Positions 26,205-55,691 of a stretch of 64,000 nucleotides of DNA are shown piece after piece. The stretch comes from Pseudomonadota bacterium. Its GTDB lineage: Bacteria > Pseudomonadota > Gammaproteobacteria > Burkholderiales > Rhodocyclaceae. The stretch lies in contig JAKOTN010000097.1 in NCBI GenBank assembly GCA_029776255.1, positions 1 to 64,000 on the forward strand, read 5' to 3'. A model generated the notes under the pieces. The model saw only the letters and a program-made list of their open reading frames with translations. It was not told the DNA's origin and searched no databases. Within the stretch, counting starts at the first letter, position 1, and every line of letters starts with the position of its first letter. Both the position numbers and the translations under genes were made by a program.

Positions 26205-27692
26205 TCAGTGGTGGTACGCCGATTCGCCGTGCGAGGTGATGTCCAGCCCCTCGCGCTCTTCTTCTTCCGGTACCCGCAAGCCGATGACCAGATCGACCAG
26301 CTTGAAAGTGACGAAAGACACCACGCCGGACCACACGATCACCGTGCCGACGCCCCACAACTGGCTGATCAACTGCGCCGCCATGTCGTAATCGCCGACC
26401 TTGTTGGTCACGTAGTCATAAACGCCCGTGCCGCCCAGCGATGGCGCCGCGAACACGCCGGTAAGGATCGCACCGAGAATGCCGCCGACACCGTGCACCC
26501 CGAAGACATCGAGCGAGTCGTCGGCGCCGATCAGGCGCTTGAGACCATTGACGCCCCACAGGCAGACCACGCCGGCCAGCAAGCCCATGGCGATGGCGCC
26601 GATCACGCCGACGAAGCCCGCCGCCGGCGTGATCGCCACCAGACCGGCGACCGCGCCGGAGGCCGCGCCGAGCATCGAGGGCTTGCCCTTGAGCAACCAC
26701 TCGGCCAGCATCCAGGACATCGCCGCGCAGGCCGTCGCCACCCAGGTATTGACCATCGCCAGAGCGGCGGCGCCGCTGGCCTCGAGCGCCGAACCGGCGT
26801 TGAAACCGAACCAGCCGAACCACAACAGCGACGCGCCGATCATGGTGAAGGTCAGGCTGTGCGGCGCCATCGATTCACGGCCGTAACCGATCCGCTTGCC
26901 GATGACCATCGCCCCGACCAGGCCCGCCATGGCGGCGTTGATGTGCACCACCGTTCCGCCGGCGAAGTCCAGCGCGCCCTTCTGGAACAAGAAGCCCGCC
27001 GTCTTGCCCGCCGCTTCGCCCGCCGCCGCATCGATGTAGGCATCCGGGCCCGCCCAGTACCACACCATGTGCGCCATCGGCAGATAAGAAAGCGTAAACC
27101 AGATCACCATGAACACCAGGATGGCCGCGAACTTGGCGCGCTCGGCGAAGGCGCCGACGATCAGCGCGCAGGTAATCGCCGCGAAAGCGCCCTGGAAGAC
27201 CACGTAGGCCAGTTCCGAGATGACCACGCCCTTGCTGAAGGTGGCGGCGACCGAGTCGACGGTGACTCCCTTGAGCAAGAGTTTGTCGAACACGCCGAAG
27301 AATCCGTTGCCCTCGGTGAACGCCACCGTGTAGCCGTAAACCACCCACAACACGCTGATCAAGGCGAAAGTGACAAAGACCTGCATCAGCACCGACAGCA
27401 TGTTCTTGGTGCGCACCAGGCCACCGTAGAACAACGCCAGGCCGGGAATGGACATCAGGATGACCAGCGCCGCGCTGACCATGACCCAGGCGTTATCGCC
27501 CTTGTTGGCGACCGCCGCCGGCGTCGCCGCCGGTGCGCTCGCCGTTGGCGAGGCGTTGGCCACCGCCGGATCGGCGGCTGGCGCGCCCGGCGTCGTGGTC
27601 GCCGCGGGCAGCGCGGGCTTGTCTTCGGCACAGGCCGGGGCACCGAGGCTGACGGCGCCCAGCAAGGCCAGGATGGCAAATAGACGTCTCAT
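26205..27692 (-). CDS. amtB: Ammonium transporter
   Basis: Signal-like N-terminus, GDNAWVMVSAALVILMSIPGLALFYGGLVR, GVHGVGGILGAILTGVFA. Confidence 0.95.
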   Translation of the reverse strand: MRRLFAILALLGAVSLGAPACAEDKPALPAATTTPGAPAADPAVANASPTASAPAATPAAVANKGDNAWVMVSAALVILMSIPGLALFYGGLVRTKNMLSVLMQVFVTFALISVLWVVYGYTVAFTEGNGFFGVFDKLLLKGVTVDSVAATFSKGVVISELAYVVFQGAFAAITCALIVGAFAERAKFAAILVFMVIWFTLSYLPMAHMVWYWAGPDAYIDAAAGEAAGKTAGFLFQKGALDFAGGTVVHINAAMAGLVGAMVIGKRIGYGRESMAPHSLTFTMIGASLLWFGWFGFNAGSALEASGAAALAMVNTWVATACAAMSWMLAEWLLKGKPSMLGAASGAVAGLVAITPAAGFVGVIGAIAMGLLAGVVCLWGVNGLKRLIGADDSLDVFGVHGVGGILGAILTGVFAAPSLGGTGVYDYVTNKVGDYDMAAQLISQLWGVGTVIVWSGVVSFVTFKLVDLVIGLRVPEEEEREGLDITSHGESAYHH

Positions 27693-27702
27693 GGCGTTTT
27701 CC

Positions 27703-28095
<393 letters not shown>

Positions 28096-28950
28096 TCAGA
28101 AGGTTCGGCTGACCGACAACACCCCGATGCCGCGACCCGCGTCCTTGCTGTGCGAACCGACGCTGACCACGCCACCGTTGTCGGACATCGAGTTCGTGAA
28201 ACAGTACGGTTCACCGTCGCGGCAACGGCCCTTGGCGTTGCTGTCGACATACGACAGCGCCAGCACCCAGCCCTTGATGTCCTTGCTGACGCCGAGTTTC
28301 CAGTCGGTGTAGTCGCCGTTTCGGACGTTTTTCAGATTCAGCCGGCCGACATGGCCGTTGATGCCCCAACCGTCGCCCAGGTCGTAGTTGACCGAAAAGT
28401 CCAGATACTGGGTGCCCTTGGTGCTCTTGTCGGTCGGGCCGGCGCTGTTCAATCCGCGCAGCGAAAAATAATCGTCAACCGCGTAGAAATACTTCAAGGA
28501 CAAGAACTTCCACGAACCGCCGATATAGATTTCCTTGTTGTTCACTGTCCCGGAATTGGCGCCCAGGCCCAGACCGCGTGCATACGAACCCGGGTAGTAG
28601 TAGTAGATCGCGCCGACATCGAGGCCGACATCGCCGAAAGTGGCCTTGTAACCGCCGTAAAAATCCATTTCCAGGTTGCCGTCGGGGAAACCGGCGCCGG
28701 AACTGACGTTTGAATTCCAGTTGCCCAGGTAAAAACCGCTTTCATGCGCGTAGTCGATGCCGCCCTGCAACGCCGGTTTGCCAAACGTCTGATCGATGCC
28801 GCGGAAACGATAGCTGCTGAACAGTCCGAGGTTGCCGGTCAGCGGACTGGCGGCGGCCGGTGCCGCCTCCGTGGCTGGTGGGGTGGTTTGCGCCCATGCC
28901 GGCGCGGCGAGCGCGGCGCAAACGGCGGTGGCAAGCACGGTTTTCTTCAT
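28096..28950 (-). CDS. TorF family putative porin
   Basis: Signal peptide MKKTVLATAVCAALAAPAWA, beta-barrel-like sequence with GNLGLFSSYRFRGIDQTFGKPALQGGIDY and a C-terminal Phe. Confidence 0.85.
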   Translation of the reverse strand: MKKTVLATAVCAALAAPAWAQTTPPATEAAPAAASPLTGNLGLFSSYRFRGIDQTFGKPALQGGIDYAHESGFYLGNWNSNVSSGAGFPDGNLEMDFYGGYKATFGDVGLDVGAIYYYYPGSYARGLGLGANSGTVNNKEIYIGGSWKFLSLKYFYAVDDYFSLRGLNSAGPTDKSTKGTQYLDFSVNYDLGDGWGINGHVGRLNLKNVRNGDYTDWKLGVSKDIKGWVLALSYVDSNAKGRCRDGEPYCFTNSMSDNGGVVSVGSHSKDAGRGIGVLSVSRTF

Positions 28951-28997
28951 GGTGACGTCCTCAATGGAAGGAAAAAAAGAAATGCTGCGAACCATCT

Positions 28998-29014
28998 AGC
29001 AGGTTCCGTGCCAA
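28998..29014 (-). promoter_or_regulatory. Sigma-54 (RpoN) promoter for torF-glnK-amtB
   Basis: Minus strand TTTGGCACGGAACCTGCT matches TGGCACG-N4-TTGCW, with GG and GC separated by exactly 10 nt. Confidence 0.75.
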
Positions 29015-29106
29015 AATTATTTACGCTTATAAAGCAGTTTGTTGAATCGATATTGCCCGAACGTTCCGGCGTCTTCGCACTGCCGCGGGGCGACCCTCGC
29101 ACGCCA

Positions 29107-29122
29107 TGCACTAAATTAGTGC
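29107..29122. promoter_or_regulatory. NtrC-like enhancer site
   Basis: TGCACTAAATTAGTGC contains GCAC-N7-GTGC in a perfect 15-bp palindrome, about 100 bp upstream of the sigma-54 promoter. Confidence 0.65.
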
Positions 29123-29184: not shown

Positions 29185-29430
29185 ATGCTCGACCCCAGAA
29201 TCCTCGACGATCTTGCTTCCCGCCTGGGCAAGCTCGTTTCCGCCAGTCCCGTGGCCGATATTGAAAAGAACGCCCGCGCCTTGCTCGCCACCTTTTTCAC
29301 CAAGCTCGATCTGGTGAGCCGGGAGGAGTTCGACATTCAGACGCAGGTCCTGCAAAGGAGCCGGGCCAAATTGCAGGAACTGGAAGAGCGTCTGGACCGG
29401 CTGGAAAACCCGCCGGAATCAAAATCCTGA
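29185..29430 (+). CDS. ubiK: Accessory factor UbiK family protein (BMFP domain)
   Basis: Short coiled-coil ORF with FTKLDLVSREEFDIQTQVLQRSRAKLQELEERLDRLE. Confidence 0.85.
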   Translation: MLDPRILDDLASRLGKLVSASPVADIEKNARALLATFFTKLDLVSREEFDIQTQVLQRSRAKLQELEERLDRLENPPESKS

Positions 29431-29478: not shown

Positions 29479-30978
29479 ATGCCTCTCGCGATCGTCCATA
29501 GTCGTGGTCTCGACGGCCTGTCCGCGCCGGAAGTCGCCGTCGAGGTTCATTTGGCGGGCGGTTTGCCGAGCGTGACCCTGGTCGGCCTGCCCGACACCGA
29601 AGTCAAGGAAGCGCGCGATCGCGTGCGCGCGGCCTTGCAAAACTCCGGTTTCGACTTTCCAAGCAAGCGGATCACCGTCAATCTGGCGCCGGCCGATTTG
29701 CCGAAGGAGTCTGGCCGTTTCGACCTGCCGATTGCCCTCGGCATCCTCGCCGCCTCGGGACAGATTCCGGGCGCGGCGCTGGAAGGACACGAATTCGCCG
29801 GCGAGCTGTCGCTTTCTGGCGAGGTACGGCCCATTCGCGGCGCCCTGGCGATGGTCCTCGCCGCCGGCGGCCGCGGACGTTCCTTCGTTCTGCCGGGCAG
29901 CAGCGCGCGGGAAGCGGCGCTCGCCGATGGCGTGCGGGTATTGACCGCCAATACCTTGCTGGACGTCTGCGCGCACCTCAGCGGACAAGCCGCGCTGAGC
30001 GAATGCGAGGCGGTGGCCGAAAACCCGGCCGAGGACGGCGCTCACCCGGATCTGGCCGAGGTGCGCGGTCAGGCGCAGGCCAAGCGGGCGCTCGAAATCG
30101 CTGCCGCCGGCGCGCATTCCATCCTTCTCGCCGGCCCGCCCGGCACCGGCAAATCGATGCTGGCCAGCCGTCTGCCCGGCGTGTTGCCGCCGATGTCGCA
30201 AGCCGCCGCGCTGGAGTCGGCGGCGATCCTGTCGTTGGCGGGCCAGTTTCGCGCCGAGCATTTTCGCCGCGTTCCCTATCGGGCGCCGCATCACACCGCC
30301 TCCTCGGCCGCGCTGGTCGGCGGCGGCGGCGTGCCGCGCCCCGGTGAAATCTCGCTGGCGCACCAGGGCGTGCTTTTCCTCGACGAAATTCCGGAATTCG
30401 ACCGTCGTGTCCTCGAAGCGCTGCGCGAACCGCTGGATAGCGGTCGCATTCACATTTCACGCGCGGCGCGGCAAGCCGAATTCCCCGCGCAATTCCAGCT
30501 CGTCGCGGCGATGAATCCCTGTCCCTGCGGCTTTCATGGCGACGCGCGCGGCCGTTGCCGGTGCACTCCCGATCAGGTTTCACGCTATCGGAGCCGTCTT
30601 TCCGGGCCGTTGCTGGATCGCATCGATCTACAGATCGAGGTGCCGGCGGTACCCGCCGAGGTGTTGCAGCAGGCGCCGGACGGTGAATCGTCGGCCATCG
30701 TCCGCGAACGCGTGATCCGGGCCCGCGACAGGCAACTGCGGCGACAAGGCAAACCCAACGCCCGGCTGAGCGGCAAGGAAATCGATGCTCACTGTCAGCC
30801 GGAAGCGGCGGCTCAGGCGCTGCTCAAACAGGCCATTGCCCGATTCGATCTCTCCGCGCGCGCCTATCATCGCTTGCTCAAGGTCGCCCGCACCCTGGCC
30901 GATCTGGCCGACCGCGAAACCATCGGCGCGCAACAGGTCGCCGAGGCGGTCCAGTATCGCCGTTTCACCAAGGATTGA
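29479..30978 (+). CDS. comM: YifB family Mg chelatase-like AAA ATPase (ComM)
   Basis: VHLAGGLPSVTLVGLPDTEVKEARDRVRAALQN, Walker A AGPPGTGKSMLA, FLDEIPEFDRRVLEALREPLD. Confidence 0.93.
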   Translation: MPLAIVHSRGLDGLSAPEVAVEVHLAGGLPSVTLVGLPDTEVKEARDRVRAALQNSGFDFPSKRITVNLAPADLPKESGRFDLPIALGILAASGQIPGAALEGHEFAGELSLSGEVRPIRGALAMVLAAGGRGRSFVLPGSSAREAALADGVRVLTANTLLDVCAHLSGQAALSECEAVAENPAEDGAHPDLAEVRGQAQAKRALEIAAAGAHSILLAGPPGTGKSMLASRLPGVLPPMSQAAALESAAILSLAGQFRAEHFRRVPYRAPHHTASSAALVGGGGVPRPGEISLAHQGVLFLDEIPEFDRRVLEALREPLDSGRIHISRAARQAEFPAQFQLVAAMNPCPCGFHGDARGRCRCTPDQVSRYRSRLSGPLLDRIDLQIEVPAVPAEVLQQAPDGESSAIVRERVIRARDRQLRRQGKPNARLSGKEIDAHCQPEAAAQALLKQAIARFDLSARAYHRLLKVARTLADLADRETIGAQQVAEAVQYRRFTKD

Positions 30979-54947: not shown

Positions 54948-55691
54948 TCAAGGTTGTTCTGCCCGGTCGGCTTCCGCCTGAGCGGAGGCGAAGTCGAGTG
55001 AGCCGTCGTAGATCGCGCGACCGGCTATGGCGGCGCTGATGCCTTCTTGTTCGACGGCGCAAAGTTGCCGAATATCTTCTATACATGACAGGCCACCACT
55101 GGCGATGACGGGAATAAGCAACGCTTGTGCCAACTTCACCGTGGCCTGGACATTAAACCCGGTCAGCATGCCGTCGCGCCCAATATCGGTGTAAACAATC
55201 GCTTCCACACCGTAATCCTCGTATTTTTTCGCCAGATCGATGACATCGTGTCCGGTCATTTTCGACCAGCCGTCGACCGCCACCTTGCCGTCCTTGGCAT
55301 CGAGGCCGACGATAATGTGACCGGGAAACGCGCCACAGGCGTCGTGAAGAAAACCCGGATTCTTGACGGCGGCGGTACCGATGATCACATAACTGACGCC
55401 ATCGTCCAGACATCGTTCGATGGTATCGAGATCGCGGATGCCGCCACCAAGCTGTATCGGGATGTCGTCGCCAACAGCCTGCACGATTTCCTTGATCGCC
55501 CGCTCGTTTTTCGGCTTGCCGGCAAAGGCTCCGTCAAGGTCGACCACGTGCAGGCGGCGAGCTCCCTGCTCCAACCAGTGCCGTGCCTGCTCGCCTGGGG
55601 AGTTGGAAAAGACCGTTACCTGGTCCATGAGCCCTTGTTTAAGACGGACACACTGTCCTTCTTTCAGGTCAATCGCTGGAATAATCAACAT
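54948..55691 (-). CDS. hisA: HisA isomerase (ProFAR isomerase)
   Basis: [43 protein letters not shown]. Confidence 0.95.

Follow-up and report, generated by a model that had tools for sequence, protein, structure and literature searches.

A torF-glnK-amtB operon behind a predicted sigma54/NtrC promoter, and the recurrence of torF in potassium-uptake operons, suggest that TorF is a candidate outer-membrane channel for ammonium-type cations

The closest described counterpart of the locus analyzed here is the nlmA-glnK-amtB operon of Herbaspirillum seropedicae, which is NtrC dependent and induced 21-fold under nitrogen limitation, and whose first product, NlmA, was found with membrane extracts and suggested to lie in the periplasm (PMC3023670). 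This operon, in which nlmA was also called orf1 (Noindorf et al. 2006, 2011), resembles that of the window, by which we mean the whole 64,000-nucleotide stretch of DNA analyzed, in gene order and in having a membrane-associated first-gene product of unknown function; however, the H. seropedicae protein was named neither TorF nor a porin there and was considered periplasmic. NtrC control of such an operon is therefore already known from H. seropedicae, and in its regulation the window adds another example of an operon type described before.

In the window, the three genes lie on one strand (minus) in the same order as in nlmA-glnK-amtB. The first, torF (probable nlmA; 28096-28950), encodes a TorF-family putative porin of 284 amino acids with a signal peptide, 12 predicted strands, and a C-terminal Phe, and its product scored 171 bits against TIGR02001 (cutoff, 47.15) and 182 bits against PF09694 (Gcw_chp; cutoff, 24). 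It is followed by glnK (27703-28041), encoding a PII protein (NF007946, 187 bits), and by amtB (26205-27692), encoding an ammonium transporter (TIGR00836, 440 bits; PF00909, 403 bits), with all of these scores over the cutoffs. A small minus-strand hairpin between torF and glnK (28059-28076) had a z score of only -1.7, and no function is claimed for it. Divergently from torF runs a ubiK-like gene (29185-29430, plus strand; PF04380, 89 bits), which adjoins torF in most relatives, followed by another conserved neighbor, the comM/yifB AAA ATPase gene (29479-30978, plus strand; TIGR00368, 617 bits). TorF as defined by TIGR02001 is also the product of the first gene behind the same promoter in Noviherbaspirillum (L148, L173, and L180) and Herminiimonas (L156), both sister genera of Herbaspirillum, from which we infer that NlmA is very probably TorF. 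The primer sequences given in PMC3023670 yielded no usable match to the collected loci, and nothing relevant was found in the open-access literature on TorF or Gcw_chp together with glnK/amtB or kdp, nor did the papers retrieved describe an assay of TorF channel activity.

Upstream of torF, the minus-strand stretch TTTGGCACGGAACCTGCT contains a predicted sigma54 -24/-12 element, TGGCACGGAACCTGCT (29013-28998), of the form TGGCACG-N4-CTGCT, in which the GG and GC dinucleotides stand at -24/-12 spacing with one mismatch to the consensus. Farther upstream, 93 bp from the -24 box, lies a perfect GCAC-N7-GTGC match, GCACTAAATTAGTGC (29108-29122; 8/8 positions), as a putative NtrC site 1. Both elements had been reported in the initial annotation of this DNA and were found again at the same positions, whereas a second putative NtrC site (29077-29091; 7/8 positions), which is 62 bp from the -24 box and 31 bp from site 1, had been overlooked there. 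Judged from the position of the -24/-12 element, transcription is predicted to start at 28987 on the minus strand, 12 nt past the -12 element, leaving a 37-nt leader ahead of the torF ATG at 28950. An in-frame ATG at 28995 was ruled out as the torF start because it lies upstream of this predicted transcription start. Control of the divergent ubiK by the NtrC sites was considered as well and was rejected, since no sigma54 element is directed at ubiK.

Taken alone, each motif is within chance expectation. The -24/-12 consensus with up to two mismatches matched 12 times in the window versus 14.4 expected, and the NtrC-type pattern matched once versus 2.9 expected. Because the single motifs are not significant in the window, significance was judged by conservation, spacing, and genome-wide uniqueness, and by these the combination is beyond chance. 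The tandem NtrC pattern at no more than one mismatch occurs once in the 3.79-Mb genome, namely, in the torF upstream region. A strict sigma54-like search of the genome gave 27 matches, compared with 19 for a reversed-pattern control, and only 2 of these 27 had tandem NtrC sites within the 200 bp upstream: torF, with gaps of 62 and 93 bp to the -24 box, and glnA, with gaps of 62 and 92 bp. The torF promoter resembles both the glnA promoter of the host genome and glnAp2 of enteric bacteria: in each, a -24/-12 element is accompanied by a pair of NtrC sites roughly three helical turns from each other. Its targets differ, as it would govern PII and ammonium transport along with an outer-membrane protein, in place of glutamine synthetase. 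The genome encodes RpoN (TIGR02395, 467 bits) and one NtrC (TIGR01818, 681 bits), both over the cutoffs. Of the other -24/-12 matches, two were noted: TGGCACAAGCGTTGCT, a good match on the minus strand of the window (55117-55132) upstream of a HisF-like frame, has no NtrC sites and is probably due to chance, and one elsewhere in the genome (G000:C134:25180-25195) lies about 250 bp ahead of a glutamate synthase-like frame, with no NtrC site found.

The motif survey of relatives drew on 246 torF loci gathered from genome searches and from a scan of named genomes. Of 202 torF-glnK operons, 198 (98%) had a sigma54 site no more than 250 bp ahead of torF, compared with 2.5% in dinucleotide shuffles, and of 191 nonredundant promoters, 141 (74%) had a perfect GCAC-N7-GTGC at most 170 bp ahead of the -24 box, compared with 0.5% in shuffles. 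The distances of NtrC sites to the -24 box in these 191 promoters clustered at 61 to 64 bp and 92 to 95 bp, and the torF promoter of the window matches both modes. Furthermore, 104 of the 191 had both sites when windows of 60 to 65 bp and 91 to 96 bp were used, whereas windows moved by about half a helical turn retrieved 0 and 1. A formal periodicity test returned a best period of 14.9, dominated by the 62- and 93-bp modes; this supports the two-mode layout only, so no general 10.5-bp phasing of NtrC sites is claimed. The RpoN/NtrC architecture read from the window by the initial annotation is thus backed by spacing, conservation, uniqueness within the genome, and the presence of both rpoN and ntrC, and as a prediction from sequence, regulation of torF by sigma54 and NtrC is strongly supported.

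To which gene this promoter belongs was indicated by relatives with other gene arrangements. Relatives without torF carry the same promoter directly ahead of glnK, including one genome of the same genus (L265), in which the promoter elements TGGCACGGAATCTGCT and GCACTAATTTGGTGC precede glnK. Conversely, orphan torF genes of Achromobacter and Bordetella (L154, L155, L164, and L182), which sit between a hypothetical gene and rlmD, distant from glnK and without glnK-amtB, have kept sigma54 and NtrC sites, indicating that torF is probably a target in its own right. The predicted promoter is therefore that of the glnK-amtB operon with torF as the first gene, and is also torF's own. The initial annotation had stressed that the promoter stands ahead of torF rather than glnK; this holds for its position, but no departure from glnK control follows. 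Its assignment of torF to the nitrogen-limitation regulon is supported both by the operon promoter and by the orphan genes keeping the same elements. As to the arrangements themselves, the torF-less same-genus genome (L265, bases 600 to 1010) has kept the promoter and the glnK leader, and its leader resembles those of torF and glnK fused, as if torF had been cleanly lost; the alternative orders torF-amtB-glnK and glnK-amtB-torF occur in L364 and L369.

TorF itself is predicted to be an outer-membrane beta-barrel from its signal peptide, 12 strands, and C-terminal Phe. An AlphaFold model built with 28 sequences had a pLDDT of 83.5 and 12 long strands, with a pLDDT above 90 over most of them; F284 at the C terminus was invariant in the 28 sequences, and Phe ends all or nearly all TorF proteins. 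By sequence, no TorF relatives were found in the PDB. By structure, the nearest solved folds given by Foldseek included VhGalP (KdgM type), NanC, and Tsx, with a TM score to the target of 0.53 to 0.65 and an rmsd of about 7 Å. These 12-stranded channels agree with the modeled TorF in barrel size and overall fold, but at 8 to 15% identity and such an rmsd they show no detectable sequence homology to it; the Foldseek comparison thus supports the barrel size of the model and not a detailed kinship with solved channels. Invariant residues (Y74, G76, W78, and S80; E94, D96, Y98, and G100; E140 and Y142; H200 and G202; Y214 and D216) alternate along the strands and so would line one face, presumably the lumen, although such family conservation can be structural. 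The mean net charge of mature TorF was -4.5 for amt-linked and -3.6 for kdp-linked proteins and is -1 for that of the window, values that are not decisive on cation selectivity.

torF copies that are away from glnK and lack a sigma54 site were found in kdp potassium-uptake operons, in which KdpA, KdpB, KdpC, and KdpD were confirmed by NCBIfam. The kdp-linked copies (L033, L034, L115, L120, L127, L358, L366, L367, L376-L381, and L383) include some whose products are near the TorF of the window, at 60 to 66% identity. In the Azonexaceae/Rhodocyclaceae kdp operons L033, L115, L120, and L383, the stretch from torF to kdpD holds first a PTS EIIA-like gene and then usually a CorA-like gene. In the torF tree, kdp-linked copies interleave with amtB-linked ones, with 8 changes of context in a quick tree of 152 rows and 9 in a careful tree of 70 rows; at least 7 switches between amtB and kdp contexts are forced by supported branches, the bootstrap range is 9 to 9, and a single origin appeared in 0% of the bootstrap trees.

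Methylated-amine contexts, which rest on four genomes, were also found. torF lies behind dimethylamine monooxygenase genes in L362; adjoins a TMAO permease, identified by NCBIfam in L375, with TMAO demethylase opposite, in L375 and likewise in L419; and stands ahead of the betaine-aldehyde/choline dehydrogenase genes betB-betA in L365. Among 14 genomes having that TMAO permease, 3 had torF in its neighborhood; the permeases adjoining torF have no PDB relatives by sequence. The family takes its name from TorF of Shewanella, which belongs to the TorR/TMAO regulon and, regulated by TorR, is not known to be under NtrC; its methylated-amine context agrees with the TMAO permease linkage seen here. 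New in this analysis are the torF copies in kdp operons and the isolated cases in clusters for dimethylamine, TMAO, and choline.

What ammonium, K+, protonated dimethylamine, and choline have in common is that each is a small monovalent cation; TMAO is a close neutral relative. Given that close relatives of the window's TorF stand in K+-uptake operons, the route for nitrogen compounds proposed in the initial annotation is probably too narrow, and the contexts point rather to ammonium-type monovalent cations; one channel family serving these solutes would explain why torF moves among operons of three kinds, those for ammonium uptake under NtrC, for Kdp, and for amines. Our best inference from gene neighborhood is that TorF, with its 12 predicted strands, forms a channel that admits ammonium and its isosteres (K+ and methylated amines) through the outer membrane. 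The best overall explanation of the locus, to which we give a probability of roughly 0.6, is an NtrC/sigma54-switched operon with TorF as an ammonium-type cation channel. Extended to the whole family, the proposal that TorF/Gcw_chp proteins are channels for NH4+, K+, methylated amines, TMAO, and choline, paired with AmtB under NtrC or with KdpABC under KdpDE and exchanged at least seven times, is in our judgment an even bet.

TorF could instead be a general porin for small solutes or nitrogen compounds (amino acids, polyamines, and oligomers) that widens permeability in nitrogen limitation, with the kdp copies serving osmotic or turgor adjustment rather than K+ passage. General porins and nucleoside/sugar channels are indeed also among the Foldseek neighbors of the model, and torF adjoins unrelated genes as well, including those in L357, L360, and L363 that fit no part of the ammonium-type-cation idea. 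However, the partners that recur are systems for ammonium, K+, dimethylamine, TMAO, and choline in particular, and AmtB- and Kdp-linked TorF proteins have in common the same pore-side E94, D96, Y98, E140, H200, and D216, so that we regard a general porin as unlikely, though deserving serious attention. Rather less likely is that torF came to lie with kdp through a local accident in how Burkholderiales genomes are organized, in which case the linkage would carry no information on substrate. The linkage was seen only in Burkholderiales, most kdp operons have no torF, and in a class-wide sample of kdpC genomes none of the torF places listed adjoins kdpC, save one in the same order. Yet in an order-wide sample of 300 genomes (100 with kdpC; 48 with kdpC and torF), at least 12 of the 48 had torF within the kdp cluster or next to it, read from the same strand, compared with about 0.2 expected under a random-placement model. 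Moreover, torF took four different positions (kdpABC-torF-kdpD, torF-kdpABCD, kdpABCD-torF, and kdpACB-torF-kdpD), always on the same strand, and the switches forced in the tree likewise speak against an accident.

That TorF/NlmA is a structural or periplasm-associated envelope protein of nutrient limitation, and no channel, would accord with the periplasmic assignment of NlmA from membrane extracts and with the lack of a solved relative by sequence, but is improbable in view of the confidently modeled 12-strand barrel, the C-terminal Phe, and the placement of invariant residues on one alternating strand face. Least credible is that torF is a passenger without a nitrogen role, merely first behind a promoter serving glnK-amtB, as the torF-less relatives might suggest, because the orphan genes of Achromobacter and Bordetella retain their sites and the torF-glnK-amtB order is found across beta- and gammaproteobacteria.

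In the preferred reading, that of an NtrC/sigma54-switched operon encoding an ammonium-type cation channel, torF-glnK-amtB would be transcribed as one operon and switched on in nitrogen shortage. Phosphorylated NtrC would bind the two sites 31 bp (three helical turns) apart, loop to the sigma54 polymerase at -24/-12, and open the promoter, as at glnA; the binding and looping are taken from established NtrC biology, and the sites, their spacing, and their conservation from sequence. TorF would then pass ammonium and look-alike small cations (K+ and methylated amines) across the outer membrane, and would thus keep the high-affinity inner-membrane system, AmtB here and KdpABC elsewhere, from being starved by low outer-membrane flux. 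A parallel is offered by PhoE and OprP, the outer-membrane pores of phosphate limitation, which, like TorF as proposed here, are induced in scarcity together with a high-affinity inner-membrane uptake system; unlike TorF as predicted, they have 16 rather than 12 strands and belong to the opposite charge class, and no sequence relation between them and TorF was found.

The textbook view is that NH4+ and K+ cross the outer membrane by free diffusion through general porins. If the proposal holds true, the outer-membrane passage of ammonium-type small ions would be a regulated, limiting step, and a channel reserved for them, induced by starvation and linked to AmtB and Kdp, would change that view. 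For a family still labeled "unknown function" or "putative porin," this would supply a missing part of the physiology of nitrogen and potassium limitation in betaproteobacteria, among them plant associates that fix nitrogen and bacteria of wastewater.
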